The position numbers were made by a program, and so were the translations under genes. From Anisus vortex (taxonomy: Eukaryota; Mollusca; Gastropoda; Planorbidae): a DNA stretch of 64,000 nucleotides. The stretch spans positions 15,531,624 to 15,595,623 of the forward strand of contig OX421509.1 in the NCBI GenBank assembly GCA_949126835.1, read 5' to 3'. The number at the start of each line of letters is the position of its first letter. Within the stretch, counting starts at the first letter, position 1. The notes below the pieces were generated by a model. The model saw nothing but the letters and a program-made list of their open reading frames with translations. It was not told the origin of the DNA and made no database searches. Shown here in pieces: positions 5,333 through 42,500 of this stretch.

Positions 5333-5535
5333 AACTAAAGTTTTGGACTGACTGTTGCAGAGTAAGGGATTTTGGATCTGCCATTAAATCTGTCAGAGCA
5401 GAATGTGATTTTAATGCTAGTCCCAGTTAAAGAATTTCTTTTCACAGAGGACACAATAGACAGACTACTACGGTTTTGTAAAGTAAAGTTTTTGCATTGT
5501 ATGTTGGACATAAACAGGAATGTAAACTGATGCAA

Positions 5536-6105
5536 AATAATATATTTGTCAAGAAATATATTTGTCAAGAAATATATTTGTCAAGAAATATATTTGTCAA
5601 GAAATATATTTGTCAAGAAATATATTTGTCAAGAAATATATTTGTCAAGAAATATATTTGTCAAGAAATATATTTGTCAAGAAATATATTTGTCAAGAAA
5701 TATATTTGTCAAGAAATATATTTGTCAAGAAATATATTTGTCAAGAAATATATTTGTCAAGAAATATATTTGTCAAGAAATATATTTGTCAAGAAATATA
5801 TTTGTCAAGAAATATATTTGTCAAGAAATATATTTGTCAAGAAATATATTTGTCAAGAAATATATTTGTCAAGAAATATATTTGTCAAGAAATATATTTG
5901 TCAAGAAATATATTTGTCAAGAAATATATTTGTCAAGAAATATATTTGTCAAGAAATATATTTGTCAAGAAATATATTTGTCAAGAAATATATTTGTCAA
6001 GAAATATATTTGTCAAGAAATATATTTGTCAAGAAATATATTTAACAAGAAATATATTTGTCAAGAAATATATTTGTCAAGAAATATATTTGTCAAGAAA
6101 TATAA
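5536..6105 (+). repeat. 16-bp tandem array, about 35 copies, in the presumed aminopeptidase 3' UTR
   Basis: The unit is tatttgtcaagaaata and is almost perfectly conserved; one copy near 6040 reads ttaacaag. Because 16 is not a multiple of 3 and the unit has no stop in any forward frame, all three + frames stay open for 182-190 codons. They encode the same cycling 16-residue peptide (NIFVKKYICQEIYLSR). This follows from the unit and is not evidence of a protein. Confidence 0.95.
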
Positions 6106-6109
6106 ACAT

Positions 6110-15423: not shown

Positions 15424-15576
15424 TCATGACAGATGGACTTGCACTGCAACTATTTCCATTGGAGGCACTTGCAGTGGCCCACTGGGGTTGATGACTGATA
15501 ACTGTTGGTTCATGGTCAGCGACGTCATGACACTATCTTTGACCACAGCATTGTTGAACATTGAGGCCAGGGTAAC
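15424..15576 (-). CDS. MAN2A: MAN2A exon 25 and stop
   Basis: Residues 1110-1159, ending [13 protein letters not shown] with TGA at 15424-15426. PMEI.....L is the expected extreme C-terminus of the family. Confidence 0.93.
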   Translation of the reverse strand, partial: VTLASMFNNAVVKDSVMTSLTMNQQLSVINPSGPLQVPPMEIVAVQVHLS

Positions 15577-18500
15577 CTGAATCGACAGAAACACAAAATG
15601 TTGTAGGTTTTCAAATACTTCAGTTCCATGTAATATAAAGATGTCAATAGGGTAATAGTGGACAATAGTACAGTTGAATGTCCTAATAAAACTTAGGGTG
15701 TATGCCCAATTAATCCCTATAGTCTAAGCTATAATAAAGTTTTGAGCTTGCACCAAGTCAACAGTCTGAGAAAGACATTTGTATGGATCTAATGGGAAAA
15801 AAATAAAATAAAAGATCTATACTTTATGCACAGGATAGAGAAAAAAAACTACCTTTCCATCCGTGGCCAAGCAGGGCATATGGGGTTGAGGAAAACTGCA
15901 ATCATTTGGAAGATTACGAAGTAACAGCAGGCTGGTATCTTTAGGTACAAATTGAAGCTGTCACAGCAAAAAAACAAACAACAAAAAAACAATTATCTTT
16001 TTTACAAGACAAACAAATGGTTGCATTGATTTAAATTGATTTGAATGGTGGAAAACAAGACTTAAAATGAATGAGGATAAGACCGAGGTAATTCAAATCG
16101 GTGCCCAAGATAAAAAGGCTAAAGTTGAAGGTTTGGAAACACTGATGTTTATGAACTGCAATATCCCCTTTGTAGAAAAGGTAAAAAAACCTTGGTGTCA
16201 TCCTTGTGACTCTGACTCAACTGTGACTCACATTTGTCTTTTGATGCCCACATAAGCAATCTATGCAGCGGCCTTTACATACAGCTGCATAGACTTGGTC
16301 AGATCTGACCTGTAGTTTGACTCAATAAAGAAACATGCCGCTGCTTTTGTACTCTCACGCCTCGACTACTGTAAAGCTCTGCTTACTGGGTAACCCGACG
16401 ATGAAGTGGCCAAATTATGGCGTATTCAAAACTGTACAGCCCGGCTGGTCATGCGTAGAACAATCTGGGATTCTGCAAAAGTTCTCCTGCGCCGGCTACA
16501 TTGGCTCCCTGTGAGAACGAAAATGTAATACAAAGTGGCGATACTTTGCCGTCAGACGCCTACCTATCTGAAGGCAGTAATAAAATCGTATGTTCTGCAA
16601 TGAACACTCCGCTCTGCCGACTCCTCACTTGTAGAGGTGCCCTGTTTCTCTCTGACGACTGTTGGCCAGAGAGCCTTACCTATATTTGGCCTGAAAGTAT
16701 GCAAATCTACTTCCCATCCAACACACCCAGACAAATGCTATCGTTACTTTTAAAAAGAACTTGAAAACACATTATTTTAATATTTACCTGCGATAAAAAT
16801 TTTTAGACCCCTACTGTTGTACTTTTTAGTTGGTTAACACTTCATTTATTTGCTTTGTCGTATGTTTGTAAAAATTTTAGATTATTAATTAGTTGTTTAT
16901 CCTTTTTAGCCTTTTTGCTCAATGTTAACCCTTTATTCAGTCGCCACCTTTCTACCCCTCCAACCCTAGAGTCAAGTTGCATAACTCCGTGTATTGAAAA
17001 CAAATCTGACAAAAAATATTATTAAAAAATTTACTGCAAAAAAAAAATAATTGCAAAGGGACTTACTGAAATTCTTCATAGTAAAAATATAAAGTTCAAT
17101 TCAAACCAGTTGAGATGAAAATAAAGTAATAAATAAAAAGGAAATAGCTGAGCCTACGTCGACAGGTTCCCATTGTCATGGATCATCGTATCAGACTCAA
17201 ATCCCCCTATTTAAAGCCTATACAACTTCTACGATGCTTAAAATAACTCATCGCCCAACGCTTATCTAAATATTTCTGAAATGCCATCAAATTTTAGCAG
17301 AATTAGCCAAAAAAATTTGTTATTTTCAATACTTCACTAAAATTTTATCGATCACGCTAAAAATGCCAAACAAACGTAAAAATAGCGCCACTATCGCTCT
17401 CTTTGGTCAGTTTTAAAAGTTTATATAATAGGCATTTAAAAACTTGCATTGGGATCAAGAAGCAAAACAACATATACTCCAAAGGGGAAACAATTAAATG
17501 CGCTCCTAGCTTACATTTTTTCTTTTTGGCAGTGCCAAATTATTACATTTAACAAAAAGAAGTGACCTCCTAAGTTTGTTGAAGTCAAACTACCTATACA
17601 TCTAAGGGTTATTTTATGATCTTCATTTTTCTTTGCCATTCCCTTGCACTTGAGGGAGAAGTAATACTTCACAGTTATTTTTACTTTCTATTCTGTTTAA
17701 ACCATAAAATGCTTAAATATTTACCTCCTTCTGGTCATCACTGTGCTGAAGCACTCTGAGGTTCAACAGATGTAACTCACAAGGGAGAGAATCAGACAGC
17801 AGGAGTAGTTCACTGGACATAGGCACATCTTTCCCATGCAGACTTCTGGGCATGACCATTATAGGGTGAATCAATGCTAGTGAAGACTGCTGGCCCAGCA
17901 AGGATGGGAAGGATGTGTCAGGATACACTGGCTGTGAACATAGATTTATTGTTTCTATTCATATCTCAATGAGACAGCTTTTACAACTGTTGTATGCTAT
18001 GTATGTTACTAATAAAATAGTCTTGTTAAAATGTTGTATGCTATGTATGTTACTAATAAAATAGTCTTGTTAAAATGTTGTATGCTATGTATGTTACTAA
18101 TAAAATAGTCTTTGTTAAAATGTTGTATGCTATGTATGTTACTAATAAAATAGTCTTTGTTAAAATGTTGTATGCTATGTATGTTACTAATAAAATAGTC
18201 TTTGTTAAAATGTTGTATGCTATGTATGTTACTAATAAAATAGTCTTTGTTAAAATGTTATATGCTATGTATGTTACTAATAAAATAGTATTGTTAAAAT
18301 GTTGTATGCTATGTATGTTACTAATAAAATAGTCTTTGTTAAAATGTTATATGCTATGTATGTTACTAATAAAATAGTATTGTTAAAATGTTGTATGCTA
18401 TGTATGTTACTAATAAAATAGTCTTTGTTAAAATGTTGTATGCTATGTATGTTACTAATAAAATAGTATTGTTAAAATGTTGTATGCTATGTATGTTACT

Positions 18501-21500
18501 AATAAAATAGTCTTTGTTAAAATGTTATATGCTATGTATGTTACTAATAAAATAGTATTGTTAAAATGTTGTATGCTATGTATGTTACTAATAAAATAGT
18601 CTTTGTTAAAATGTTATATGCTATGTATGTTACTAATAAAATAGTATTGTTAAAATGTTGTATGCTATGTATGTTACTAATAAAATAGTCTTTGTTAAAA
18701 TGTTGTATGCTATGTATGTTACTAATAAAATAGTATTGTTAAAATGTTGTATGCTATGTATGTTACTAATAAAATAGTCTTTGTTAAAATGTTATATGCT
18801 ATGTATGTTACTAATAAAATAGTATTGTTAAAATGTTGTATGCTATGTATGTTACTAATAAAATAGTCTTTGTTAAAATGTTGTATGCTATGTATGTTAC
18901 TAATAAAATAGTCTTTGTTAAAATGTTATATGCTATGTATGTTACTAATAAAATAGTCTTTGTTAAAATGTTATATGCTATGTATGTTACTAATAAAATA
19001 GTATTGTTAAAATGTTGTATGCTATGTATGTTACTAATAAAATAGTCTTTGTTAAAATGTTATATGCTATGTATGTTACTAATAAAATAGTATTGTTAAA
19101 ATGTTGTATGCTATGTATGTTACTAATAAAATAGTCTTTGTTAAAATGTTGTATGCTATGTATGTTACTAATAAAATAGTATTGTTAAAATGTTGTATGC
19201 TATGTATGTTACTAATAAAATAGTCTTTGTTAAAATGTTATATGCTATGTATGTTACTAATAAAATAGTATTGTTAAAATGTTGTATGCTATGTATGTTA
19301 CTAATAAAATAGTCTTTGTTAAAATGTTGTATGCTATGTATGTTACTAATAAAATAGTCTTTGTTAAAATGTTATATGCTATGTATGTTACTAATAAAAT
19401 AGTCTTTGTTAAAATGTTATATGCTATGTATGTTACTAATAAAATAGTATTGTTAAAATGTTGTATGCTATGTATGTTACTAATAAAATAGTCTTGCTAA
19501 AATGTTTTGAACTCTTGACAGAAATGTACAAAATGGAGCTTGGTGATAAAAAGGGTTTATAAAAAATTTCAGTCTAGCCAGTTCTCCGAATAGCTGGGAG
19601 GAAAACTGTCAGATGATCAGACTCAACATGCATCAGATAAGAAAAGAGAGACAATGACATAATAAGTATAACATGCATAAGAGACAAATGACCATAAGCC
19701 AATGGACTAGTTAACATTATTTAGATTTTATTGATTTTATTTAGAGGATAGATTGGTTGCATTTGAAGATTAGCTGCATTTTTTATATATGTTTCTCTAA
19801 GATAACAAGACAATGAAGTCATAGAAGACAACACAAAAAAACTAAAAGTATTGAAAGCCTTTGAATAACATTGTAATATATTCTATAAAGTTTTCAAAGC
19901 CTACACTGTAAAATCAAAAATAATTTCTTCTAGAAAAGTATTATAAGCCTACATTTAAATTTTAAAAAGTAATACGTTCTACAAATGATTCCATACCTCA
20001 GACCTAATTGTTCTTCTCTCAAAAAGTAATAGTTCTACAAATGATTCCATACCTCAGACCTAATTGTTCTTCTCTCAAAAAGTAATAAATTCTACAAATG
20101 ATTCCATACCTCAGACCTAATTGTTCTTCTCTCAAAAAGTAATAAATTCTACAAATGATTCCATACCTCAGACCTAATTGTTCTTCTCTCAAAAAGTAAT
20201 AGTTCTACAAATGATTCCATACCTCAGACCTAATTGTTCTTCTCTCAAAAAGTAATCTAAACCTGCTTGGTGTTGGGTGATTGTCTAAAACTCCCTGAGC
20301 TAGTCCTCTGCTATCATCCTGATTTAATCGACGGTCCAGCATAACATCAATAGTATCTGAAACAAAGGAAATATCAAATATTTTTTTAAGCTAGGAGTGA
20401 AAAGTCTTACAACAATAGCATCTAAAACAACTTTCTTTTTCATTATAAAATTCTGTAACTTGTGGCTAAAAATTTGGGGCCCATGAAATTTATTTGCGGA
20501 AAGTAAAATTTCACAGAGCATTAAAGTGCCGTTCTGGTGGTATTATTCAAATCCTAGTAAAACCCCTCACATCTGATTTGGGTCTGGAGATTTATCCCAG
20601 AGTTATCCCATCTCTGATGATAGCCTGGCATAATTTAGAAAGCGGTTGATCCCAGGCACTCTGCTGAACTTTGCATAACCTTTCATAAACACTACCCTGT
20701 ATGTGCTCAATATATTGTTTAACATAAAGGTTTATAAAATGCAGATATAGTACAAATATCTTTTATCAAAAGATCTATATATTGCTTACAATGCAGATAT
20801 AGTACAAATATCTTTTATCAAAAGATCTATATATTGCTTACAATGCAGATATAGTACAAATATCTTTTATCAAAAGATCTATATATTGCTTACAATGCAG
20901 ATATAGTACAAATATCTTTTATCAAAAGATCTATATATTGCTTACAATGCAGATATAGTACAAATATCTTTTATCAAAAGATCTATATATTGCTTACAAT
21001 GCAGATATAGTAAACATAACTTACTGGGACTCAGGTTTGCAGCACCACAGGCTTGTGCTGATAAGACACTGACTCTTCTAAAGTCATCTTGCAGGTAGGC
21101 CATTGTTGGCATGGGGTAGACATTTCCCTGCAGAGTCAACTTCTCATAGAACTTTCTTTTTTGCATCTGTAAAAATATACAGAATTTAAATAAGACAACA
21201 ATTCCAGAATTTTATGTTTTAGTCATTCACAACTAGGCTGGCAAATAGAAGACACACAGTTATCTTATTATATGTTACAGACTCTCATTCTATACAAAAG
21301 ATTATTGGTTCCTACGCTTATCAGTGATTTGAGTCTAGTCTTGCATTTTTATTTGTGTTTTAAAGTTTGTTGGTTTTTTGGTTTAGTTCAGGTAATCCAT
21401 CTTGTGCCCGGATACGGCAAGGGAAAAAAAGAGAATAGTTTGAGTTTGTTCTTGCATTTGGAATAAGAAAAGTGTTTTTATCCTTTTGTTTATTTGAGTA

Positions 21501-24500
21501 TTGCAATAGATTGTTATTGTGTTGTTTTTCTAGGTAAGAATTTAATGCTTTATATATTATTACTACTTTACTCTTTGTTCTTCTGTTTCTAGATTAGTGA
21601 TTTAACTAATAGTGTTACACTAGTCAGTTGTGAATATTCAATAGTAATGAACCTTGTTTCTGTTTGGGACAGTCGTTAACTGACAACAGCACATTGACCA
21701 ATTCAATTTAAATGTGTTTATTCTTTTTATTCCCTCCCCACCCAGTATTCTAATGCATGGACTGTTGACCTTTGCTGTTTGTTTTATTTTCTTGATGTCA
21801 GGTTAAGGTTCATGACTGTAACAACTATCTCAAACACTGTTAGTTAAACTGTTTTTTTAATTACACTTTTATTTGTCCTGGTAATGACCACTTCAAACTA
21901 TCACAGTTACAGTTATTAAACTCTTATTCAAGAAGGCGTGCAAATATTTTTCTCTGTTTAATTTATTAAGAGTTGCCCCCAAACCAAAAGGAAAATCCAC
22001 CAACAAATACACACCAGCACACACTAGACATAGGCACATACCCTGATAAATAGTTCATTAAGAATGTTTAGCTGTTGTTTTATGGAGTAGGTGTTTCAAT
22101 TAATTTCAGAGATATTAAAGTCCGACATTTTCCAAATTATAGCATTTTTATGTTTATCTTCAATATTTCTTAGCTGATTGTACAGATTAGTCATTCTAGT
22201 GGAGTGTTAGTTGGTCTGTATATACTGCCTACATTTAATTACATGAATGATGTCATGGCCCTTAAAGCTGCTGAAGAATGTAAACCATTAATAGCTCACA
22301 TTAAGAGTACACCGGTGGGCTTATGCATGAGGGACAGCCCAGGTTGAGACTCATTGCACTGCTGCAAAGGCCCAGAGACTTGGTAGGGATGAAGCAATGT
22401 GCGCAACAACCTGTCTCACCAAGCCTGGTGCCTGGATGGCAAGGCAGTCTGGAATTTGTGCTACCCAGTGATAGTGCAGGAATACTGTTAATGATCAAGG
22501 GAAAATCTGCTGGTGGCGAGACACAGAGTAATGCATGTGACTGTGTAGACCACACCCCTTTGTTTGCCGCATGCCTTATAGACATACCGTGGGGTGACTA
22601 GTCTTGGACAGGATCTTGGTGTGCCTCTCCCCCCCCCATTCACACCTTTACATTGTTACGCTCTGGCCGTAAGAGCCGGATGGCTCATCTGTTGTTGTTT
22701 TTTATGATTTATTTAAAACCAGTAAATAATGCTTCACTAATCCCATTCAGAAAAGGATAGTTTTTTTTATATTATTCCCAAACGTACGACAAAGTTACTT
22801 CTACTTTCAACTTACAAAATGTTTAAGAAAAAAGTGTGTTGAGTTTTTTATGGACACAGCCCCCCAATACAAATAGACTGTAGTAAGAGAATAAAGAAAG
22901 ACAACAGACAAGACACACAGAAAGGTAAATAAAACAAGAGTAGACTTCTAATGGCAGCAACAAGTCAAAGAAAACAAGTCAACTAGCCTATATATAAATT
23001 CACTTTTTTGTTTTCCCAACTCACCTGAAAGCCATTGAGATCTGAATAAAATGTGTGTTCAGGATTCTCTATATTTGTGTGAATTCTTAGACCAACTTCT
23101 TTGTTCTGACTGTTTCTTATGTCCACAATGTTGAAAATGTCCACAGAAGAGCCATCAGTGCCTAAAATGTGAGAGACAGTGTCATCTGTTAAATTACTAT
23201 CATATTTCTTTATTTGTACAATAAATATACCATAACTAAGTAACAACCAACAAGGTCAGCTTTTTTCCTCTATAATAAATAGGTTTAAGACAAAGGCTAC
23301 ATGTCTTTACAAACAATGAAGTTTAAGACAAAGGCTACATGTCTTTACAAACAATGAAGTTTAAGACAAAGGCTACATGTCCATACAAACAAATAGGTCT
23401 AAGACAAAGGCTACATGTCTATACAAACAAATAGGTCTAAGACAAAGGCTACATGTCTTTACAAACAATGAAGTTTAAGACAAAGGCTACATGTCTTTAC
23501 AAACAATGAAGTTTAAGACAAAGGCTACATCTCTTTACCAACAATGAAGTGTAAAACAAGGGCTACATGTCTATACAAACAATTAGGTCTAAGACAAAGG
23601 CTACATGTCTTTACCAACAAATAGGTCTAAGACAAAGGCTACATGTCTATACAAACAATGAAGTTTAAGACAAAGACTGTCAATTAACAAAACCACCAAA
23701 ATGCTGACCTGGAGAGTTGTGAAGTCTGGCTACGTGGTGAATATATTGAGTGAAGACATGAACCTCTGAGGTTATGGGACCTTTGACTATCTTGATCAGT
23801 TCTGGTTTGGAAGTCAACAGCGGCTGGATTTAAGCAATAGATACAAAAAAATACTACTCAACATTATTTTAATCACACTAAAAACAATAATCAGAAACAA
23901 TGCAATTCAAAGGTTATTGAAAACTGAATGAGAACCTCTACACTAGCTACACAGTGAGAAGAAATCATTTATGAAGAACAGTACTTTATAAACCAATGCA
24001 GTTATACATTATTTATTTGTCTACATTCCTGCTATAGCAGAGACAGATCAATTCATGTTTTATTTTTATTCTAAATCTGTGCTCTCCTTCTTCTCATTAC
24101 CGTGCAGTTGAACTATTTCAACCCCAAACAAGCAATGTCACAGTGTACACCAATAGGCCAACAGCCTTTATGAGGTTTGAGGGAATGAGGAAGGAAAGCC
24201 ATTTTGTAGTTCAATTGCCACTGGGAGGAAAAATCTCCACAAGGGAGAACAACCTTCATTGAACAAAGTCATGCAACTCAAGGTGAGATCTTTCTTTCTT
24301 TTTACCTTGGCTTGTCCATCAGGTAAGAACAGGTAGGCTCCGGATTTTTCATTGGCCATTCGTGTGCCGTACTGAATGAATTCTATTTCAGATCTGAACA
24401 CTTCTCCATCTGGCAATGATCTCACAGACTGAAAAAGAAAAGTTAAAGGTCAATAAAACTTTTTGAAAAAAAAAAATGGAAAAAAAAATAATGAATGAAT

Positions 24501-27500
24501 CTAAGAACGGACAAAACAAATATTCAATCAAAAGTCTATTCACCTACTTGGTCACTATAAGTTATAGCTTGTCAAATAAAAAATTGGCCGCACACTAAAT
24601 GACTTGGCTTTTCACATATAAAATTACTCAGTTTTTTTAATTAATTAAATGATATAATTTTAAGCTAAGTAAAAAGTTTACCCTCCTATCCGTAGTTCAC
24701 AAAAAACCAACAACTAAGTTTGTCATATAAAAATAATTTCAATTTGTTGCTTTAAAACCTATTATGATGGCAGTCAGGTCAAACATCACATGGATTTGCA
24801 ACCCAGCCTCCCCCCTCCCATTTAAGCCAACACACATCAAGAAGAGCCAACAATTACATTGCAATAAAAAATTCTTTTTTAGATTATTTCAGTCAATACT
24901 TTTCCCTAATTCAAGTTTTTAAAACAAATTACCTTTATCCTTCTTCAAATTGGATATATTCCTTATGCCAAGGTAAAAATTCTAAACATTTATAACAGAG
25001 TAAAAATATACATAAATCTCCAGTAATCTTGCAACCTCCAAAAAATACCGGGGAGTTGAACTGTTGAAAATGTTAGCTAAAGAATCTACATATTTTAATA
25101 GAAAGAAAGAATTGAATTGTACCTTCAGTAAACCTGTACTGCCTGAGAATGTGCATTCCAAAAACTTTGTCTCTAGTTTAAAATCTGCTTGGTTGTTTGC
25201 AGTTTCTATTGAGAAAGGCTCACTGAAAAGAAACAATTATATTTGCTGGAAACTTCATAATTGTGACTGTGCTATTCTATACATTGATTTAAAGTGACTA
25301 TACCATTCTATAAATTGATTTCAAAATGAAAATACCATTCTATAAATTGATTTCAAAGTGACAATACCATTCTATAAATTGATTTCAAAGTGACTATACA
25401 AATCTATGATTTGATTTGAAAGTGTCAATACCATTCTATAAATTGATTTGAAAGTGTCAATACAATTCTATACATTAATTTAAAGTGACTATACCCTTAA
25501 ATAGATTGAATTAAAGTGAATATATCCTTCAATAGATTAATAATAGTGACTATGTCCTTCAATAGATTAATTTTTAAGTGAATATATATTTGTTATTGTT
25601 GCCTAAACAACAAGCAAGAATCAAGGTCACCACCTAATCCCTAATAATAAAGGACCATTTCAAAATAGGAAAAGGACATGTTTAAATTTTTTTAAATTTA
25701 TTTTGAAACACTATATTTGATCAAACTATCCTATTGGTGAGAGAAAGGCAAAGGCAAAGTGATTGTGTGGCAAGCACAACATCCAGCTTTTTACTTGCCT
25801 TTACTTGCCATAAATAATGCCAAAATTCATATAGATGTGAATAGACTCAGTGAAAGTCTGTAGAACAAAGACTACATTTTCTTTGTTTGCTCCGAGTTAA
25901 ACCAGAGATCTTCAGAATGCCCATACCCCATAGTATAAATCTATGGCTGCACCATATATAAAATTATACAGATATATGTCAATGCAAGTCTGTAGAACAA
26001 AGACTACATTTTCTTTGTTTACTCAGAGTTCAACCAGAGAACTTCAGAATGCCCTTACCCCATAGTATAAATCTATTGCTGCACCATATATAAACTTATA
26101 TATATGTATAGATATATATACAGTATATATATATATATATACAGTATATATATATATATATACAGTATATATATATTTATATATATACGGTATATATATA
26201 TATATATTTATTTATATATACATATATACTAGCGTCACTGACCTTTTCATGTCCAAAGTTTTATCAGAATTGAGATATGTGACAGAAACTAAATGATTTT
26301 TAACATCCGCGCCATTGTCAACTTTTGTCACTGTGAATTTCCTTATACTCAGTCCAGGTATTACTGCTAGGAAAGAAATCTGTCCAGTGAAACAAAGAAA
26401 CAAAATAAATCAATTAGGAATGGTTAGAAACTAATCATTTACAGGTTTCACTCTTCTATTGTGGCTATACCTCATTTACAGATTTCACTCTTCTATTGTG
26501 TCTATACCTCATTTACAGTTTTCCCTCTTCTATTGTGGCTATACTTCATTTACAGTTTTCACTCATCTATTATGGCTATACTTCATTTACAAGTTTCACT
26601 CATCTATTGTGGCTTTACCTCATTTACAGTTTTCCCTCTTCTATTGTGGCTATACCTCATTTACAGTTTTCACTCATCTATTGTGGCTATACCTCATTTA
26701 CAGTTTTCACTAATCTATTGTGGCTATACCTCATTTATAGATTTCCCTTATCTAATTTATAGATTTCCCTCATCTATCGTTGCTATACCTTTAAACTGTC
26801 AAATTCTTTAAATGTATGTATTTTATGTATAAATTTGCCTGCCTCAATTGTATTATGCACCAAGGTAAATTTTTTAAAGAATAAATGTAACGATAAAGTA
26901 AATGTAGATATATATAGCATAACTATTTAGTATGAATAAAACAATTGTAGAGTTAGTTATTCCCCACTAAATAAGTTGTGTTTAGAGGCAGGGATGGTAT
27001 GACAAATATGTGTAATTCAGGTTGATAGAATCCTGTAAAATACCTTATAAATGTTGGGAGAAATGACTCCTGTAAAATACCTTATAAATGTTGGGAGAAA
27101 TGACTCCTGTAAAATACCTTATAAATGTTGGGAGAAATGACTGCTGTAAAATACCTTATAAATGTTGGGAGAAATGACTCCTGTAAAATACCTTATAAAT
27201 GTTGGGAGAAATGACTCCTGTAAAATACCTTATAAATGTTGGGAGAAATGACTCCTGTAACATACCTTATAAATGTTGGGAGAAATGACTCCTGTAAAAT
27301 ACCTTATAAATGTTGGGAGAAATGACTCCTGTAAAATACCTTATAAATGTTGGGAGAAATGACTCCTGTAAAATACCTTATAAATGTTGGGAGAAATGAC
27401 TGCTGTAAAATACCTTATAAATGTTGGGAGAAATGACTCCTGTAAAATACCTTATAAATGTTGGGAGAAATGACTCCTGTAAAATACCTTATAAATGTTG

Positions 27501-30500
27501 GGAGAAATGACTGCTGTAAAATACCTTATAAATGTTGGGAGAAATGACTCCTGTAAAATACCTTATAAATGTTGGGAGAAATGACTCCTGTAAAATACCT
27601 TATAAATGTTGGGAGAAATGACTCCTGTAAAATACCTTATAAATGTTGGGAGAAATGACTCCTGTAAAATACCTTATAAATGTTGGGAGAAATGACTCCT
27701 GTAAAATACCTTATAAATGTTGGGAGAAATGACTCCTGTAAAATACCTTATAAATGTTGGGAGAAATGACTCCTGTAAAATACCTTATAAATGTTGGGAG
27801 AAATGACTCCTGTAAAATACCTTATAAATGTTGGGAGAAATGACTCCTGTAAAATACCTTATAAATGTTGGGAGAAATGACTCCTGTAAAATACCTTATA
27901 AATGTTGGGAGAAATGACTCCTGTAAAATACCTTATAAATGTTGGGAGAAATGACTCCTGTAAAATACCTTATAAATGTTGGGAGAAATGACTCCTGTAA
28001 AATACCTTATAAATGTTGGGAGAAATGACTCCTGTAAAATACCTTATAAATGTTGGGAGAAATGACTTCATTGTCTGTCCAGAAGGGATCCACCTGAGAG
28101 TGAATTACTTGATCCTTGTGATCTCTGACCTCTACAAATGGCCAAGATGTCCACAGTTGGACAACTTCAGTTCTAGTCTGGCCCAGAGAGTTGTACAGCA
28201 CAACAGACCTGTTCACATGTAAAACAAAAGATATATAGCAACATCCACAGATAAACTTCTCGGAACTAGAACATGATGTTTAATATTTCTAAATAGTTTA
28301 TTTTAAAACTCTTATATTATCTCTATATCTTGCAAAATTTTTACTTTTCTCTCTGAGGTTTTCTGTACAACATCTTTTACATTAGAAATGGCAAGTGGAC
28401 ATGGTGCTAAGTATATGAAAGCAGCCATAAAACCATAGAGACTGGTGCTGAGTATATGAAAGCAGCCATAAAACCATAGAGACTGGTGCTAAGTATATGA
28501 AAGCAGCCATAAAACCATAGAGACTGGTGCTGAGTATATGAAAGCAGCCATAAAACCATAGAGACTGGTGCTAAGTATATGAAAGCAGCCATAAAACCAT
28601 AGAGACTGGTGCTAAGTATATGAAAGCAGCCATAAAACTATAGAGACTGGTGCTAAGTATATGAAAGCAGCCATAAAACTATAGAGACTGGTGCTAAGTA
28701 TATGAAAGCAGCCATAAAACCATAGAGACTGGTGCTAAGTATATGAAAGCAGCCATAAAACTATAGAGACTGGTGCTAAGTATATGAAAGTTGCCATAAA
28801 ACCATAGAGACTGGTGCTAAGTATATGAAAGTTGCCATAAAACTATAGAGACTGGTGCTAAGTATATGAAAGTTGCCATAAAACTATAGAGACTGGTGCT
28901 AAGTATATGAAAGTTGCCATAAAACTATAGAGACTGGTGCTAAGTATATGAAAGTTGCCATAAAACCATAGAGACTGGTGCTAAGTATATGAAAGCAGCC
29001 ATAAAACCATAGAGACTGGTGCTAAGTATATGAAAGCAGCCATAAAACTATAGAGACTGGTGCTAAGTATATGAAAGCAGCCATAAAACTATAGAGACTG
29101 GTGCTAAGTATATGAAAGCAGCCATAAAACTATAGAGACTGGTGCTAAGTATATGAAAGCAGCCATAAAACCATAGAGACTGGTGCTAAGTATATGAAAG
29201 CAGCCATAAAACTATAGAGACTGGTGCTAAGTATATGAAAGTTGCCATAAAACTATAGAGACTGGTGCTAAGTATATGAAAGTTGCCATAAAACTATAGA
29301 GACTGGTGCTAAGTATATGAAAGTTGCCATAAAACTATAGAGACTGGTGCTAAGTATATGAAAGTTGCCATAAAACTATAGAGACTGGTGCTAAGTATAT
29401 GAAAGTTGCCATAAAACTATAGAGACTGGTGCTAAGTATATGAAAGTTGCCATAAAACTATAGAGACTGGTGCTAAGTATATGAAAGTTGCCATAAAACT
29501 ATAGAGACTTGTGCTAAGTATATGAAAGCAGCCATAAAACTATAGAGACTGGTGCTAAGTATATGAAAGCAGCCATAAAACTATAGAGACTGGTGCTAAG
29601 TATATGAAAGTTGCCATAAAACTATAGAGACTGGTGCTAAGTATATGAAAGTTGCCATAAAACTATAGAGACTGGTGCTAAGTATATGAAAGTTGCCATA
29701 AAACTATAGAGACTGGTGCTAAGTATATGAAAGTTGCCATAAAACTATAGAGACTGGTGCTAAGTATATGAAAGTTGCCATAAAACTATAGAGACTGGTG
29801 CTAAGTATATGAAAGTTGCCATAAAACTATAGAGACTGGTGCTAAGTATATGAAAGTTGCCATAAAACTATAGAGACTGGTGCTAAGTATATGAAAGTTG
29901 CCATAAAACTATAGAGACTGGTGCTAAGTATATGAAAGTTGCCATAAAACTATAGAGACTGGTGCTAAGTATATGAAAGTTGCCATAAAACTATAGAGAC
30001 TGGTGCTAAGTATATGAAAGCAGCCATAAAACTATAGAGACTGGTGCTAAGTATATGAAAGCAGCCATAAAACCATAGAGACTGGTGCTAAGTATATGAA
30101 AGCAGCCATAAAACTATAGAGACAATGTTTATTCTAATATAATGTTTCAGGAACACATTTCTTCTACAACTATACAAACTTAGAAGTTTCTATTTAATAC
30201 AGACATGCCTACCCCTAAGGACTAAAAAGAGGAACAATCTTGATGAAAAAGAGGATTTTTCAACAAAAAAGCGGAACACCCTTTATGTAACAATCTTTTA
30301 TGACAAAAAAAAAAAAGAGGAACATACCCATCTATTTACTATTTCACTATTTAAAATGTAGGTAGGCCTACGTTTTACAGACAGTTCGCAATCGATCTAG
30401 ATCTAAGACCTAAGAGCTTCTATTGAGTACAAAGAACATTAGGCCTAAATTCACATTTTTCTTTGCTGAATAAACTCCTCTGAACATTCCTTCCTATAAA

Positions 30501-33500
30501 ACTGTCTGTTTTTTTACAGTTTGAACAAATCAGATTTAAACTTTCTGAGCCAGGACGTTTAGACATTTTCACAATCTTAGCAATACAGTAAAGGAAAATA
30601 AGATTCATTGCCAAACACGTGTAATACCGCAAGAAAACGTTAGAAAAGACTAGAATATGTCTTTTAAAAACCCCATAAAACCCAGGTAATAATAATTATA
30701 TTATTGTGACCTTATTGATGCCTTTGATTTATCAACCTAGACACGGACTATATTTCAACACATGAAAAACCCAAACTTTCCAATTTGGCGTAACAAAACT
30801 AGTAAAAAGCGTAACGGCGTAACAAAGTGTGTTTTTTAATAAAAAAAAGCGGAACAAATACGCCAAAAGCGGAACGGTAGGCATGTCTGATAGTACCTCA
30901 ATCAGTAATCTGGTGGTAATAAATTCAAATATTTTGACATGAACATATATATAATATATTTAAATATTTAAAGCAAGCTTTGCTACATGCAAAATGTGAA
31001 GAATATTAATCTGCAAGGTAAATTCTGGGCAGGTGATTACAAAAGATGTTTTCTACAACTATGTTGGTTAAAAAATAACAACACTTACTTTGGATCATTT
31101 CCCAGCTCCAGCACTGGCCTTGTGGGTAAACTGTCATGACTTGATCTCAGCTGATCCTGGATATTGTAAAATGCATTGTTTGAATAGTCTACACATACAT
31201 TGTTTGAATACATCTATACATACATACACAACTGAAAAAAAAAAAATCATGAACATCCTGAAACACACTCTAGTCATGCTCCCTTTATAAATAACAGATT
31301 AATTAGTTTTTAAAATTCCTCTCTAGTCCCCACAGAGAAGTATAACATGTTACCCCCACCCCGCTTCCTCCAACAATCACATCAGAACTGAGACCAGAAC
31401 CTTCTGCAGCAAGTCTCAGCTCAAGCATTAAGACACCAACAGCTGTTTATGAAGGCAGTGATAGGTGAGGGGGATGGTGAGTCAGGGCTAGGAGACTTAA
31501 ATAATAAGTAGTCACATTGAAAAATATGAACTAGCTTAATTACTTTGTTCATGATTATGTATTTGAACTTTTCTACATTCATAAAAAGATTGAAAAATCA
31601 AATTATTGAGTTAATTTTTGTTCTGTTCATTTAGTGTTTTTTTTATCTATTATGAACATTTGTACAATTTTAGGGGAGGTAATTTAATTTATTCAACTTA
31701 AATTTGTTAATAGCTGATATGCAATAATACAACCTCTGATATTTTAACAAATACCATTCTCAGACATTTTAGTGAAATACAATATTTGATTGCTAAAATT
31801 AAAATAAAAATAAAATCTATAAAATTATCTGCACAAATATTTTCAATGTACTAAATTTAACTCAATATTATGTAACTCCATTTGAAAAAAAAAAGAAGGA
31901 TGAAGCTCTGTAGAACAAATTTACAAAATAAGAAAAAGGTCAAAATCAATATAAGAAGAAAGTAGCTTTTAAGCCTTAAGTTTCATTAACGGATAAGGCT
32001 TTTTTTTTTCATTCATTTATAAAGGGAGTTAGTCTATAGATTTTTAGTTTGACCCCGGAAAAGAGGCGTGGTCTTGAGACTCACTGACATATATTTCTTT
32101 TGGGGGCACAAAGATTTTTGTTTCTTCTTTCCATATAGTATTTTACTAAAGGTGTTGGTTTTTTTTAATTTTATTATAGTTGTTTTTGAACTTTAAACCA
32201 TAAAAACACATGGAGATCTTAAACTAAGAACCTAGGAAGGGAATTGTTAAAAAATAACGTTTAGAGCTTCTTTTTTTTTTTAAGAAAAATTTTTTTTAGA
32301 CTTGGACTCTATGCTTTGGACCTTAATATTATGGTCGATTCTATCGTGATCACTGTGTCATTACTTTTTGTTGAGTTTCTTCAATGTAAAAAAAAAATTA
32401 CGTTTAGAACTAGTTTTGTATCGAAAAAATAATAATTAGACCTATAATGCTTTTATTACTGTCGGCTATTCAAGCTATTGCTTAACTTAGCCCTAGACCT
32501 AGATCGCTCGTTTTGATTAATAAAAAGGCAAATATAATTCTAGATATATTTTATGTTGAATGTTTGATAGAGACAGAGGCAAGAGCCAATACATCTTCAC
32601 GAATATAAAAACCATAGCCATAGCAAATATTATGTTAAATTTTAAAAATATATATATTGTTCGTAGGAAGAGGCTAATATAATAATATATATAGGCCTAT
32701 GTCGTATAGTCGGGCCTATGACCGTATGTCGGCGTAGGCCTAAGGCCTATGTTTTCCATATTGAATATTATAGGCCTATAGATATATAGGCTTATTCATA
32801 TTGTCATTTCATTAGTCCTATGCATGAAATATTATTCAATAACAGGCCTATAACTAAAAATTCATGAAGAAAACACGCATCTGTTTGCAAATATCAAATA
32901 TATAGCATAGCGGACCTTCATATTCGCTTAATTATTTCATGCAATCGCAATCGGTTAATCAACACTTTTCTATAGTAAATAGTTTCAATTGTTTAATAGT
33001 TTAAACTGTTTAAGCTCATAACCTTTAGGCTACTATAATAGGCTAATAGTACCGTAATAGGCTAATAGTAATAGGCCTAGGCCTATAGGCAGGCTAATAA
33101 TTAGGCCTATTATAGTAAACTATATATGATAGGCCGATTCGATATGCTATATTATATTAAATAATAGCTATTATAGGCCTATCCTATAAGCCTATAAGCC
33201 ATAAGCCTATATTTATAATTTATATAGGCCTTTAGGCTACTTTAGCTTAGCCTATTAGGGCCTATAATATATAGCCTATAGCTAGGTCTAGGCCTACTAA
33301 TATGTTATAATCCCGCTTAACTACTTCTACATACAATATTTTAACGATAAAACCCCAGAACAAGTCAAACAATAGCATAGGCCTATGGGACATAGACCTA
33401 GGCCTTTTCAGAATCAAACTGTGATGAGCTTAACTTTGGCTTTTCAAGGTTCTTTTGTGACATCGAAATCGAACAATAAAAAAAATATAAATAATTAAAA

Positions 33501-36500
33501 GTTACGATTTCTATTGCTACAAATAATAACTTAAAACAATATAGCCTACGCGTTGATACTTCAACACAAACAAAGCTTTATAAATATATAACTATGTTAA
33601 ATTTTATTTGTATGCTTAAAGACGATTTACTGATCGGTCGACGCCAATCTGTATTAACATGGTGACATGGTAACCATAGACGCATTAGGCCTAGAATGTA
33701 TAATAAATGTTTTTTGGGTTAAATACTGGTTCAAAAGGTAAAAGAAAAGTACAGTTCGCTCCCTAGCTTCTGGGTATAAAGTTTTTATGAATTAGTTTTT
33801 TTGTAAAATGAAAAGCTAATATAATTACGCCTAAAAACCACTAGGCCCCCAGTAAAATAACAAAGGCGAAGAAGGTTTTATTGACAACTTCTGCCCCCTA
33901 GCCACTGCGCATGCGTAGACATTGACCTCTTTTTTGGAATAATTAATAAAATGAAAAGGTCTATAAGAGAAATGTTAATTTTTTGCTCCCCTTACAGAAA
34001 TGTCACTCACCATGTTGAAGTAAAGTTGTCCCTCCATGTAAGAAAAGTCTGCCTTTGCCTGGGTGAGAAGAAATGTACTGCATGCTGATATAACTGTCTT
34101 GGTATTATGAAGAGCTTGCAGTAATCTAATAATATAATCATTTAGACATCAGTGTTATTAGCAATATGTGAAACATGATAGAGCAATAAAGTACATATCA
34201 GTCAAGTGATGTTTTCATCTATAGGGCTAGCAAAGCCCTATAGACCAGGGCTGTGGAGTCGGTAGATAAATGTTCAGACTCCAACTTCGACTCCTCATTT
34301 TTTTGTACTTCCAACTCCAATTCCGACTCAAGGTACCAAAATTTCCTCCAACTCTTCGACTCCGACTGATAAATGGTAGATAAATGTTCCGACTCCAACT
34401 CCGACTCCAGGTACCCAAAATTCCTCCAACTCCGACTCTTTGACTCCGAAGCTCTGCTATAGACACTATACTTTGACCATAAGGTGCAAGAGGATAAAGT
34501 GGCTATCACAATGCCTAGCTGACTTTACTTTAACCATAAGAGCTTGTTTAAAAAAAATATTAAAACCGCCTAACCCACAAATATTTTTTACCAAGATTCA
34601 AGTCTGAGACATTTGGTGAGCCACAGCAAGTGAACAGCAATAAGTACATTACTCACACTATATATACATTAAAGCACAGTTTCGGGCTCCCTGTCTTCCT
34701 ATGACCTTAGACCAGCTCTCAGTAGAGTAAGTCTTTGAGAATGCGACCAGCACTTCAAAGACTTTTCTTTCTTCTTTTCTTGTGCAAATAAAATAATTTT
34801 TTTTTAAAGAATTATGTAATGGCTACATTTTGAGCACAAAAATTATTAAATTTCCCTTTTTTTTAAAAAGATTAATTTATGGGCATTTTTCACATAATTG
34901 AATTGTTCATGTTTTTCAACTTGCTACATCAATGTTTTGACTAGTTGTCTAATGTGTTAGTGATGTGTTATTTTTTATTTGGAGTATAGCAATTTTTCAT
35001 AAAAATGTGAATTTATAGCTTTGACATCTATGACGTGTATAATTTATGCATTTCAACTATCGATAACAGTTTAGAATGTTCAGAATGAGCCTGCTAATCC
35101 CCCCCCCATCCCCTCAACCTTACACTATTTGCCCTACCCCCAGGGAAAAGCCAAATTTTCAATTTTACTAAATTTGCAAAATAGTTCTTTTTTTCCATTT
35201 AACAATAAAATTATTATTAGAATGTTGTTCACATATATTTAGAAACATTGATCAAGTCTAGCATTCAGTTCAGAGCTGGCTGTCATATGCTGTAGTGTAA
35301 ACAAATACAACTGTACTACCTAAATGTTTAGGAAAAATCAATAAAAGATATTAGTTAGAGTATTTCCTTTACGCCAAGAACTACAATGCTTTCAAAATGG
35401 CCGCTCTGGCAATCCCATGAGGTGTTTAAGTAAATAAAAACTAGTATTTCTAGATAAAATGAAATAAAGTAAAAAAAAAATGATCGAGTGCTGGGTGCAT
35501 CATTTTGGTAAAATAGCCCAGATGGCCAAGCCTTGAGAGCGTCACTGCGGTCTTTAAAAAATTCATATTCCCCCCACTCACCTAGTAATCCTGGTTATGC
35601 TACTGGTCCAAACTAATTCTTGTTTTAAAACTACTGTTACAGGCTGAAAGAATAAACTATTTAAAAAAAAAACACAGTTACCTCTGACCGTAGTCAACAT
35701 GTACAAAATCTTTAGCTGTGCCAGCAATGGCGTCATGATGCTGGAAAAGGCCCAGGGCTCTCCTGGCTTCAACTAGCTTCTGCATAAAGTCTTTGCTGGG
35801 GAAATTGGCTGCAGCATTTTTCCTGGCCTGAACTAGTGTTAGGCTGAAGAGGATTTCTGCGGATCTGAAATTTTATATTTATGGTGAGTACATTTTGATG
35901 AGTACTAGAAAGGTGATAAGTAATTTTGTATCATGCAGGGTTCCTGCACCAAAATCAAATCAAAATTTCAGAAGGCCGCGGGAACCCTGTGTATGTCATT
36001 TAAAGATATTTGGAAACTTTTCTTGGTAAAAAGACCATAAGAAGTGTTTTGCAGTTCAGAAACCCTTATAAATTTATCACTTTTAAATTCAATCCGACTT
36101 AATTAACCAACCTACTTAATTGTTTTTATTACTTCCAGTTTGTTCGTTACAAAGGAAAAATTTAGCATGATAGCGTGTTTTTGTGCGATTAAAAGTGTTT
36201 GTTTTTTTTTAGAATGGAAACTAACCTATATATACCTAGAGATATTAATTTTGTTATCCTAATAAAAGTATTGAATTGTATAATGATCTTTTAAAACATC
36301 AAGCATTATCTTGGCATTTAAGCACAAAACCCACTTAGATAAAATTTAGAATTTTTAACTCTAACATAAAATCTATCCTGCTGTAAGGCTCAGAAAGTTG
36401 GCAATCAACAAAGGAGGATTGGAACAAATTACAAACTTTTGTGAATGGCTGTCTGCGAAGACTACTGGCTATAAAATGGTGTGAAAAAACTACAGATGCA

Positions 36501-39500
36501 ACTGTATGGGAAAAGGACAGCACAAATTCAAATAGATCAAGAAATCCATAAAAGGAGATGGAGATTCATAGGCCACACATTGAGAAAACCGACTACAAAT
36601 TTGACTAGACAAGCTCTTGCATGGAATCCACAGGGTGCAAGACAAAGAGGTAGACCCAAGAACACCTGGCGGGGAGAAGGATGTGCATCTAACCAGGAAG
36701 AGCTGGAGAGAGTTAGAGAAGATAGCCAAAGATATGAAGACATGGAAAAAAATAGTTGATGGCCTATACTTCACTGGTTGAAAATGGCAAAGAAGAAGAA
36801 GACTTAGTTATGGGTTTTCAGTTATTACAGATACAATATTATAAGAAAAAATAAAAAGACCTAATGAAAAATGTTATTTTTACTTCAAATAATTTTAGAT
36901 AATCACACTATAATGGTAACTGTAGATGCTGAAAATGAGAAATTGGACAAAAAGTTTTAGATGATGCTACCAAGTAATTTTTTTTTTACAGAAACATCTA
37001 ATTGTCAAGTCAGTTATTTCCCACTTGATTAATCTTAACCATTATAAGTTGAAGAGCTTATATTTCAAATCATAGAGAGTTTAATGTTTATATTCATATA
37101 CCATTATATATATAAAATTATCTTTAATAAAAAAAACAACATTGCACATAATATTTTACTTTATTCATAATTTTAACAAATCTTTATAAAAAGAAATACA
37201 AATGCAAGGTTGCTTATTATGACCCTTCAATAAACCAAACAGTTTTAAAATGCACATTTTCAGAAACTGGAAGTTTATTTTCAACTATTCCTACTCTGAA
37301 TTTCCAAGTTGCAGAGTTTCAGAGAAGAAAAGAACAGACCATTAGTGTGTGATCAGACTTTAGTAGAATATCTTACTTTAAGTTGATAAGAATTCTGGTA
37401 TTTCTATAAGAATACTATACAGTGGACTTCCAATAAACAAGCAACTTTTTATATTACCTGAGATTGTGCTCTAATACACGATCCATATTTTTTTGCAATG
37501 GTCGAGAGGTGAAATATCCTGTCCAATAATTGTCATCTCTGTCGGCATAGGAGAAGAAATCTCCACTTAAGCTGGATATGCCAGCTGGTTTCTCACCAGG
37601 TGTCGTGCCAGTGTCCTTGTACAATGTGTTGAAATAGTCGCTCAGTGTGCCAAACTGGCCCTGAAGTAGCATTATAGTTATAGGTCAGTAGAAGTCACAG
37701 AAATATTATACATAAAAAATGTCCATAAAAAAATACAATTATAATTTTTTTAAACTTTATTAGGAATCTATTATATCAACCAGGTACAGAAAGATTTTTT
37801 AAAATCATAGTTTAATCTAAGGAAGCTTGTCAAGTAATTATATGAAAAAATTAAATATTAATAAATTTTTATTTTAACATGAAATATTAATATTTGACAC
37901 GATACCATTTTGTTTTTTAAATCATGATTTTATTCATCTGAGTTAAAATGTGATTAAGGATATTTAGGTCTTGCAGGGTAGCAGGAATTAGTTGGCGGAA
38001 GAGACAGACAGTGGGTCGTCATGTTGACAGTCCAGTTTACTAACCACATGACCATACCATAATGCTTCAAAAGAAACGGACAAGCCTTTAAGCTCTAGGG
38101 CAAAATGATGTTCAGGGGTGGACCAAGAAGGGGCTCACCAAGGTCCTGTCCATGCACCAGTCACCCCACACCAAGCCAACAAAGTGTGCCTGTAACATAG
38201 GGTACGGTTTCCGCAGCCACATGCACTACATTACTTTTCCCCAACATATCATTATCGTGCTATTTCGCCTGGTAGCACAAATCCCATTCCATAGGTATGG
38301 GCATCCAGGCACCAGGGTGGGGTTAAGGCGGGATTGCTGCACACGTTGCTTCCTCCCCACTGAGGCTCGGTGCCTCTTGGCGCTACAATAAGACCTCAGT
38401 TGCGCATCAGGAGCTGTCCCTCATAAGTTAGCCTACGGGTGTGCTCTTGATGCTAGAGTACTAGTGGTTTCCACACTTCGCCAGCAATGACACCCATGAG
38501 TACTGAAGTGAACCACATTACCAGCTAGATTCTCTTTACATGGATCAGCATAATAACTGACAGTCAAATTCACTATCTGTACATTAGTCAGTAAAATAAC
38601 TAACTTTACACAAATCAGTATAATAGTGAAAATAGTTAATTTCAGAAAAATGATATGTACTGTCTTATAAAATCAACTTCATAGAACTCAATAAAGTTAA
38701 TCTACCTGGGCTCCCAACTCGGGGTGGTCGTTGATGTATTTAAAAATCCTCTCGTAATTCCCAAACTGGAGGTCAAACTCCTCCATATTCATGTAGCGGA
38801 AATCATCACCAAGAGGAACTAACAGGACATTAGTTCTGTACAGCGTAGCCTTCTTTTTCCATTGGTCCAATATAATGTTAGCCCTAAGTACAAACACATA
38901 AAAGTAATAGATTATTGGTGAGAAAAAGTAAGCCTTTACATTTGAGAAAAAAAGTAAATCAGAGCTTTAGCTTCTGTAGCATTGTCACGGGTAAATAAGA
39001 GCTTTAGATTCTGTATCATTGTCATGGGTAAATTTAAATTAGAGCTTTAGCTTCTGTAGCATTGTCACAGGTAAATCAGAGCTTTAGCTTCTGTAGCATT
39101 GTCACAGGTAAATAAGAGCTTTAGATTCTGTATCATTGTCATGGGTAAATTTAAATTAGAGCTTTAGCTTCTGTAGCATTGTCACAGGTAAATAAGAGCT
39201 TTAGATTCTGTATCATTGTCATGGGTAAATTTAAATTAGAGCTTTAGCTTCTGTAGCATTGTCACAGGTAAATCAGAGCTTTAGCTTCTGTAGCATTGTC
39301 ACAGGTAAATAAGAGCTTTAGCTTCTGTAGCATTGTCACAGGTAAATCAGAGCTTTAGCTTCTGTAGCATTGTCACAGGTAAATCAGAGCTTTAGCTTCT
39401 GTAGCATTGTCACAGGTAAATAAGAGCTTTAGCTTCTGTAGCATTGTCACAGGTAAATCAGAGCTTTAGCTTCTGTAGCATTGTCACAGGTAAATAAGAG

Positions 39501-42500
39501 CTTTAGATTCTGTATCATTGTCATGGGTAAATTTAAATTAGAGCTTTAGCTTCTGTAGCATTGTCACAGGTAAATCAGAGCTTTAGCTTCTGTAGCATTG
39601 TCACAGGTAAATCAGCGCTTTAGCTTCTGTAGCATTGTCACAGGTAAATAAGAGCTTTAGATTCTGTAGCATTGTCATGGGTTAATTTAAATTAGAGCTT
39701 TAGCTTCTGTAGCATTGTCACAAGTAAATCAGAGCTTTAGCTTCTGTAGCATTGTCACAGGTAAATAAGAGCTTTAGCTTCTGTAGCATTGTCACAGGTA
39801 AATCAGAGCTTTAACTTCTGTAGCATTGTCACAGGTAAATAAGAGCTTTAGCTTCTGTAGCATTGTCACAGGTAAATAAGAGCTTTAGCTTCTGTAGCAT
39901 TGTCATGGGTAAATTTAAATTAGAGCTTTAGCTTCTGTAGCATTGTCACAAGTAAATCAGAGCTTTAGCTTCTGTAGCATTGTCACAGGTAAATAAGAGC
40001 TTTAGCTTCTGTAGCATTGTCACAGGTAAATCAGAGCTTTAACTTCTGTAGCATTGTCACAGGTAAATAAGAGCTTTAACTTCTGTAGCATTGTCACAGG
40101 TAAATAAGAGCTTTAGCTTCTGTAGCATTGTCATGGGTAAATTTAAATTAGAGCTTTAGCTTCTGTAGCATTGTCACAAGTAAATCAGAGCTTTAGCTTC
40201 TGTAGCATTGTCACAGGTAAATAAGAGCTTTAGCTTCTGTAGCATTGTCACAGGTAAATCAGAGCTTTAACTTCTGTAGCATTGTCACAGGTAAATAAGA
40301 GCTTTAACTTCTGTAGCATTGTCACAGGTAAATAAGAGCTTTAGCTTCTGTAGCATTGTCATGGGTAAATTTAAATTAGAGCTTTAGCTTCTGTAGCATT
40401 GTCACAGGTAAATCAGAGCTTTAGCTTCTGTAGCATTGTCACAGGTAAATCAGAGCTTTGGTTCTGTAGCATTGTGACAGGTAAATCAGAGCTTTAGCTT
40501 CTGTATCACTGTCACAGGTAAATTTAAATCAGAGCTTTAACTTCTGTAGCATTGTCACAGGTAAATTTAAATCAGAGCTTTAACTTCTGTAGCATTGTCA
40601 CAGGTAAATGAGAGCTTTAACTTCTGTAGCATTGTCACAGGTAAATTTAAATCAGAGCTTTAACTTCTGTAGCATTGTCACAGGTAAATGAGAGCTTTAA
40701 CTTCTGTAGCATTGTCACAGGTAAATTTAAATCAGAGCTTTAACTTCTGTAGCATTGTCACAGGTAAATGAGAGCTTTAACTTCTGTAGCATTGTCACGG
40801 GTAATCGAGCTTTAGCTTCTGTAGCATTGCCACGGATAAATCAAAGTTTTAGCTTCTGTAACATTGACACATGTAAATCAGAGCTTTAGCTTCTGTAGCA
40901 TTGTGACAGGTAATTTGTCAACAGTTTTAAATGTAATGGTTATTTAAAATAATTAAATAAATGAAATGCCACCATTCAGCAAATAGAGATCTTATTTGCT
41001 TTAGACTTGCCTATGCATTGACTATTCTAAAATTGTACTTGACAATGTCCAATGCAATGAATATTATACTATTGAACTTGGCAATGTCAATAACAATGTG
41101 CCAATACAATAACTATTATAATATTGGATTAGGTAGTGCCAATACAATGACAATTATAATATTGGATTAGGTAGTGCCAATACAATGACTATTATAATAT
41201 TGGATTATAGTATTATAATATTGGATTAGGTAGTGCCAATACAATGACTATTATAATATTGGATTAGGTAGTGCCAATACAATAACTATTATACTATTGG
41301 ACTTGGCAATGTCCAATACAATGACTATTATACTATTGGATTAGGTAGTGCCAACACAATGACTATTTTACTATTGGACTTGGCAATGTCCAATGTAAAC
41401 CTAACCCAAATAAAGGTGCAAGGGAGCAATCAGCTAATAACACTAGACAAACCTCTGTCCAACATTGTCATCTGTGATAGCCACTGGGTTTATATTCCAT
41501 GGGCATCTATACGGGCTACCTGGCAAGCGCCTAAAATCAAACTGGCAGCATATGGCAGGCTCTGGTCCACACGTGTGAGGGATGTCATATGAGTAAAAAG
41601 GCATCATGTGAGTGAAGATATCTGTATTTCCAGAGGAGTCTGATAAGAGAGAATGACCTAGTTAATCACACCCTGAGCAGCATTCCCATCAACTAGAAAC
41701 CAAATTTCATGAAGAAAATAAGTGACAACAAAATCACATTTTTTTTTTTATAGAAAATTATAAAAGTAAACTTCTTGCTGCAGGTCTGTAGACCACAGCA
41801 CCAGTTCACAAAAATGGATGTCAGGTTCCATCAGAGTTGGAGGGACTCAGCAAACACATATACTCTAAGAATTATGTTCTCACTTAACCCATTGTTGGCA
41901 CCACACATACTCTAAGAATTATGTTCTCACTTCCCCGACTGTTGGTGCCACATATACTCAAAGAATTATATTCTCACTTAACCCAGTGTTGGTGCCACAT
42001 ATACTCTAAGAATTATGTTCTCACTTAATCCACTGTTGGTGCCACATATACTCTAAGAATTATGTTCTCACTTAACCCAGTGTTGGTGCCACATATACTT
42101 TAAGAATTATGTTCTCACTTAACCCAGTGTTGGTGCCACATATACTAAAAGAATTATATTCTCACTTAACCCAGTGTTGGTGCCACATATACTCTAAGAA
42201 TTATGTTCTCACTTAACCCAGTGTTGGTGCCACATATACTCTAAGAATTATGTTCTCACTTAATCCACTGTTGGTGCCACATATACTCTAAGAATTATAT
42301 TCTCACTTACCCCATTGCTGGCGCCACATGTACTCCAGATTGCGCTCTCGTGCCAAATGTTTCTTCATTGAGTAATGAACTCTTTGTATCAACATGCTCT
42401 TAAAGTTTGATCTCTTCAGCAAGTAGGCCATGGTAGATGAATAGCCGAAGGGGTCAACTGCCCAGCCTGACTGAGGAACATAGCCTTAGGGGAGAAACAA

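Follow-up and report, generated by a model that had tools for sequence, protein, structure and literature searches.

The window analysed here is a stretch of 64,000 nucleotides (nt) from the planorbid snail Anisus vortex (assembly GCA_949126835.1, contig OX421509.1, positions 15,531,624 to 15,595,623). Its reverse strand carries MAN2A, the gene of an alpha-mannosidase 2/2x, and the intron that follows coding exon 15 of this gene opens with a 37-bp minisatellite that repeats the end of the exon together with its splice donor. We consider it likely that this minisatellite was born by tandem duplication across the exon-15 donor, grew into the intron and is tolerated through the use of the exon-proximal donor. 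On present evidence no function of the array is evident: it is one of several junction-born arrays in the gene and in the genome, and is tolerated rather than functional. The original prediction, made from the letters of the window, described the anatomy of this array correctly; what it lacked is that the array does not stand alone, as exons 7, 8 and 22 of MAN2A and dynein genes of the same assembly have similar arrays.

Results

A homologue search with peptides derived from the window gave as best match an alpha-mannosidase 2x of Biomphalaria pfeifferi (P0001). The spliced alignment guided by this protein runs from ATG to stop over 25 coding exons, without internal stops, and encodes 1159 amino acids (aa); the predicted protein is 79.6% identical to that of Biomphalaria (P0001), 74-77% to those of Bulinus and 67% to that of Physella, identities that fit a freshwater pulmonate closer to planorbids than to Physella. 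The identity of the gene and the number given to exon 15 agree with this model. When exons 15 and 16 are joined, they read NIYK/ISFLAV (a slash marks a splice junction throughout), with no residue inserted in comparison with any of the 12 aligned homologous proteins, all from other species. This uninterrupted reading supports an end of exon 15 at 28043, where it had been predicted; the intron positions of the homologues are a separate matter. Judged by homology, the exon-15 donor is authentic.

Tandem Repeats Finder (TRF) described the array with a period of 37, 28.0 copies, 99% matches and a score of 2046, which matches the unit length and the copy number of about 28 proposed earlier. The range first assigned to it, 27025-28208, covers the array but corresponds to exon 15 plus the array, which is itself shorter (Table 1). 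Each unit comprises 26 nt of exon-like and 11 nt of intron-like sequence and agrees with the true exon end over 25 nt. The array adjoins the authentic exon donor (authentic by homology), as a donor-containing variable number tandem repeat (VNTR) requires. Beyond this donor, at 28042, the sequence written out by unit has 27 decoy GTs at 37-nt steps down to 27043, all intact, so that the predicted series of near-identical decoys is indeed present. Identical sequence is found in 23 of the 27 full units; three of the others have G>C after ACAG and one has T>G at intron position +5; the real donor and 26 of the 27 decoys share a common context from -25 to +11 (36 nt). Use of a later donor had been expected to add an in-frame stop, and read-through beyond the exon-15 donor does meet one at intron +36, inside the first unit.

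A 74-nt dimer of the unit, compared with the 863-Mb assembly, gave at least 12 matches, all within the exon-15 array. Together with the TRF score, this assembly-wide search led us to reject an origin by chance or from low-complexity sequence, and the confinement of these matches to the array led us to reject, for exon 15, a mobile element (an introner or another dispersed element). Intron gain by tandem duplication was also rejected: the duplicated segment straddles a donor already required by the protein model, and no extra coding piece lies between exons 15 and 16 relative to the 12 homologues.

All 355 modelled junctions of the same genome, the array-bearing ones included, went into a donor and an acceptor matrix. 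On the donor matrix, the real exon-15 site reaches 6.89 bits (39th percentile) and 27/27 decoys score at least as high, these being matrix scores and not assays. Since the decoys equal the real donor in matrix score, position, and not strength, must decide; site strength and immediate context cannot separate the real donor from its decoys. Each unit also has the acceptor-like end ttttacag/GAG that was noticed at the outset, with 7.8 bits (50th percentile of the 355 acceptors), a score reached by 31 of 1925 other intronic AGs in MAN2A. Masking of the decoys by RNA structure was rejected, as no consistent effect was seen across exons 15, 7 and 22. Predicted RNA accessibility, real donor versus decoy mean, was 0.087/0.039 at exon 15, 0.0034/0.0013 at exon 7 and 0.0015/0.014 at exon 22; single-strandedness is thus predicted to be two to three times higher for the real donor than for its decoys at exons 15 and 7, and about ten times lower at exon 22.

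In a self-similarity scan of the 24 MAN2A donors, those of exons 7, 8, 15 and 22 scored 43-64 and the others at most 23; in the same scan, acceptor duplication was found at none of the 24 acceptors, none of which reached the cut of 36 (highest score 29, at exon 22; the rest at most 21). The sister arrays differ in the state of their decoys. All four at exon 22 are as strong as the real donor, as are six of the eight at exon 7, where two have GC. At exon 8, where the real donor is kept, all nine decoys have lost their GT and the unit has drifted away from the exon sequence; from the lost GTs and this divergence, the exon-8 array is probably older. The exon-7 array has more copies at 44062-44157 and 43534-43624, past two transposon-like insertions.

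Table 1. Features of the MAN2A locus, with positions in the window
Feature	Position	Strand	Basis
37-bp minisatellite, 28 copies; copy 1 is the exon-15 end with its own donor, followed by 27 decoys down to 27043	27031..28067	-	TRF, sequence read by unit
MAN2A (alpha-mannosidase 2/2x) coding region, 25 exons	15427..54197	-	Spliced alignment to P0001
MAN2A coding exon 15, 166 nt, authentic donor TAAG/GTATTTT at 28042	28043..28208	-	Spliced alignment to P0001
MAN2A exon 16, acceptor ttcactggacag/ATTTCT	26243..26379	-	Spliced alignment to P0001
39-bp array, about 9 copies; each repeats the final 21 nt of exon 7 with donor GTTAG	45165..45521	-	
47-bp array, about 10 copies; unit is the exon 8 end with donor	41855..42335	-	
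57-bp array, about 5 copies; each repeats the final 34 nt of exon 22 with donor GTATGG	19964..20256	-	
52-bp array, beginning 12 bp past the exon-21 donor; unit without exon-21 sequence, containing GTAAGC	20738..21012	-	

Dynein heavy chain genes of the same assembly were taken as a second sample. Twenty loci (partial) were chosen from a larger list of AAA1 matches, and their exons were modelled with six snail dynein proteins; 14 of the 20 genes are single 10-kb pieces modelled on the best of the six templates, often a paralogue, so that some junctions may be misplaced. Arrays lying wholly inside the modelled span were kept if they reached a period of 12, 2.4 copies and 60 bp; those inside exons were dropped, as was an artefactual 12-nt first exon of locus L026 with its array. 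When arrays were overlaid on the exons, 5 of 331 donors were straddled by arrays (L010, L013, L025, L026 and L028) and 2 of 331 acceptors (L014 exon 10, 82-bp unit; L022 exon 2, 57-bp unit); each of the seven cases was inspected by eye. In the two acceptor arrays the final copy holds the true site, with the decoys upstream of it. Donor and acceptor arrays alike have their true site in the exon-proximal copy, which gives the shortest exon; the reading frame, which is no proof of splicing, points to this copy, as exon definition would favour.

Two further observations concern dynein sequences of the assembly. In the L022 exon 2 array (about 1133-1533 in sense coordinates), use of a decoy would insert multiples of 19 aa beside the AAA1 P-loop. 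Moreover, G000:C3:44060004-44060933 holds an intronless open frame of 354 aa over AAA1 domain positions 1-310 of 327, the only near-full-domain single-frame dynein AAA1 match among the matches listed; a retrocopy, foreign DNA and contaminant DNA are candidates for its origin.

Whether donors attract arrays more than chance predicts was judged by random placement. For MAN2A, 15 of the 26 in-gene arrays were kept; left out were the AT-rich 26086-26229, a 132-bp repeat of 1.9 copies, the 44062-44157 fragment and eight short arrays (15353, 15963, 24465, 31174, 32694, 32978, 33183 and 38572). The seed model, in which unit-length seeds are placed randomly in introns shortened by the array length, was preferred over placement of whole arrays because arrays grow after birth. 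A mutational bias that makes splice donors favoured birth places of minisatellites in this snail lineage, for example through transcription or the AG/GT context, is a tentative reading of the results, as opposed to random hits in a genome rich in repeats. In MAN2A, a donor is straddled by 4 of the 15 arrays, where the seed model predicts 0.28-0.34 (0/400 and 2/5000 trials) and whole-array placement 0.68-1.02 (7/2000 and 4/400 trials); however, this is the gene in which the pattern was discovered. In the dyneins (331 introns, 41 arrays), the seed model gives 1.51 straddled donors for the 5 found (Poisson P 0.019) and 2.46 arrays beginning 0-30 bp past a donor for the 6 found (P 0.039). Against a donor bias, dynein acceptors are straddled at the expected rate (2 vs 1.51, P 0.44), and other zones are near expectation, with 5 arrays vs 3.24 at 31-80 bp past donors (P 0.23) and 6 vs 5.7 at 0-80 bp before acceptors (P 0.50). 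Whole-array placement in the first 252 dynein introns yields 4.6 straddled donors for the 5 found, with 214/400 trials as high. Moreover, two of the five dynein donor cases have just 8-9 exon bases in the array, and the array cut-offs are the analyst's choice. Support for a donor hot spot is thus modest.

A general clustering of arrays near exons is not advanced as a main claim, since the dynein excess depends on the placement model: 20 of 35 arrays lie within 80 bp of an exon vs 9.9 expected under the seed model (0/400 trials) and 16.0 under whole-array placement (32/400 trials as high). In MAN2A, 12 of 15 arrays lie within this distance vs 3.8 expected (0/2000 trials).

Other observations were made in the window. 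The insertions that split the exon-7 array (43534-45165) have terminal inverted repeats and extend over about 44160-45165 and about 43620-44068; an open reading frame in the former looks like the end of a hAT transposase. In a Bulinus truncatus protein model of this mannosidase gene (P0003), HQWLNSSL is followed at the exon 7/8 junction by 378 aa of VLIFSNGEMIES-type 12-aa repeats, which are missing from a second Bulinus model (P0002); most simply, they would be an intronic array mistaken for coding sequence. Large intronic arrays of MAN2A are found at 17988-19506, 25274-25571, 26435-26776, 28402-30123, 38954-40913 and 47297-47735. They end upstream of acceptors, 51-70 bp from those of exons 23, 17, 16, 10 and 6 and 193 bp from that of exon 15; these ends sit just above the expected branch-point position. 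A 16-bp array of 35 copies is open in three frames as YICQEIYLSRNIFVKK-type repeats, and open reading frames at 931-1662 and 5482-6134 resemble, by eye, reverse transcriptase.

Discussion

How the first of so many equal donors is chosen was the puzzle raised by the original prediction; the puzzle is real, but a precedent with data exists in human ABCA7. A minisatellite is also present in human IFI6 (6-16, G1P3), where the unit has 12 bp and which was reportedly described by Turri et al. in 1995. Two downstream repeat units of IFI6 serve as donors and give rise to three mRNAs (PMC4526556); those repeat donors make mRNA variants, whereas the snail exon-15 array is known from genomic sequence alone. 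In ABCA7, a 25-bp VNTR in intron 18 includes the exon-18 donor, with observed alleles of 12 to about 427 units (PMC5954066). The first donor is the canonical one, retention of one unit makes up 2 +/- 1% of transcripts independently of VNTR length, and transcripts with a premature termination codon are more abundant under cycloheximide (PMC5954066). The likeness to the snail array is close: a many-copy array begins at and includes the authentic 5' splice site, the decoys lie downstream and the frame shifts when the next donor is used. However, the ABCA7 unit is described as starting at the donor GT, whereas the snail unit also repeats 25-26 nt of the exon end, and ABCA7 has one polymorphic site, while in the snail several exons of one gene are concerned, in one assembly. 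A study on intron gain (PMC4974935) mentions genes of fission yeast in which a 24-bp AGGT segment is present in multiple copies arranged in tandem, with an intron spanning them. These genes share with the snail the tandem duplication of a segment containing AG/GT; in contrast, the new intron there arises inside an exon, and in the snail an existing donor was copied and no new intron is needed. ABCA7 and IFI6 are direct precedents for donor-containing arrays, and recurrence in one snail gene and genome is unusual. In a literature search of a limited library, no account of molluscan minisatellites born repeatedly at exon junctions came up.

The exon-15 array probably started as a tandem duplication of a 37-nt segment that takes in the last 25-26 nt of exon 15 and the first 11 nt of intron 15, and would then have grown within the intron to 27 extra copies; the copies are read from the sequence, and this order of events is the one we propose. 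Since the duplicates lie on the intron side, exon 15 and its own donor are intact, and the gene is functional if the exon-proximal donor is chosen. This choice would most likely be made through exon definition and the order of synthesis, the first donor being nearest to the exon-15 acceptor, closing a 166-nt exon and being transcribed first. By analogy with ABCA7, a slight leak to the second donor is to be expected; leaked transcripts carry a stop in the added unit and would presumably undergo nonsense-mediated decay. In seven of the nine donor arrays, that of exon 15 among them, read-through meets a stop before the first unit ends.

Several points weigh against this explanation. First-donor use at exon 15 is something we infer from the reading frame alone. 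The remaining two donor arrays (L010 and L025) have no stop ahead of the first decoy and the L022 acceptor decoys are open and in frame, so that decay is not assured everywhere. In three of the nine arrays (MAN2A exon 8, L010 and L026), no decoy lies within 2 bits of the real donor, and intact decoys may therefore be costly. Moreover, the ABCA7 array does cause harm: skipping of exon 19 rises with array length, and the alternative transcripts combined exceed the canonical one in some brain samples (PMC5954066).

It is improbable that the decoys are functional, either as extra U1-binding sites that aid exon definition or block early polyadenylation, or through a poison isoform that tunes the mRNA level. 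All 27 exon-15 decoys keep their GT and full score, as a function would predict, but the array is near-uniform and intact donors may merely reflect recent expansion; the exon-8 decoys have decayed while the real donor was kept. Longer ABCA7 arrays are accompanied by reduced expression and increased exon skipping, not by a benefit (PMC5954066). Slightly less probable still is an invisible recursive splicing, in which AAG/GT acts as acceptor and donor and a splice from the first donor to a later AAG restores the same junction. Every unit does have AAG/GT, yet AAG is a weak acceptor (5.26 bits, 22nd percentile of 355), and the array is removable with the intron in one step. The units are most unlikely to be 26-nt microexons, even with an acceptor at the 50th and a donor at the 39th percentile, given that 26 nt shifts the frame, neighbouring units leave an 11-nt intron and 12/12 aligned homologous proteins of other species have no inserted residues at the exon 15/16 join. 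An assembly artefact, which the 99% identity of the units might suggest, is equally hard to believe in view of an array of 1 kb within a 30.45-Mb contig, a variant base in 4 of 27 units and similar arrays at unrelated loci.

To conclude, birth at the exon-15 donor followed by tolerance is the explanation that we retain, and junction-born arrays seem to arise repeatedly as a by-product of repeat-rich DNA and to be tolerated by splicing. It is conceivable, although doubtful, that 5' splice junctions are minisatellite hot spots in this snail lineage and that its genes hold context-identical decoys of varied age and copy number, through which the spliceosome would find its way by position alone. 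Intronic arrays may be taken as coding, as in the case of P0003, a possible warning to gene annotators. The choice among equal 5' splice sites is usually studied with built minigenes. The exon-15 intron is a natural test of this choice, since the real donor and all but one of the 27 decoys stand in the same 36-nt context, and a comparison series is at hand in sister arrays with four (exon 22) or six (exon 7) intact decoys, in the decayed array of exon 8 and in mirror-image acceptor arrays elsewhere.

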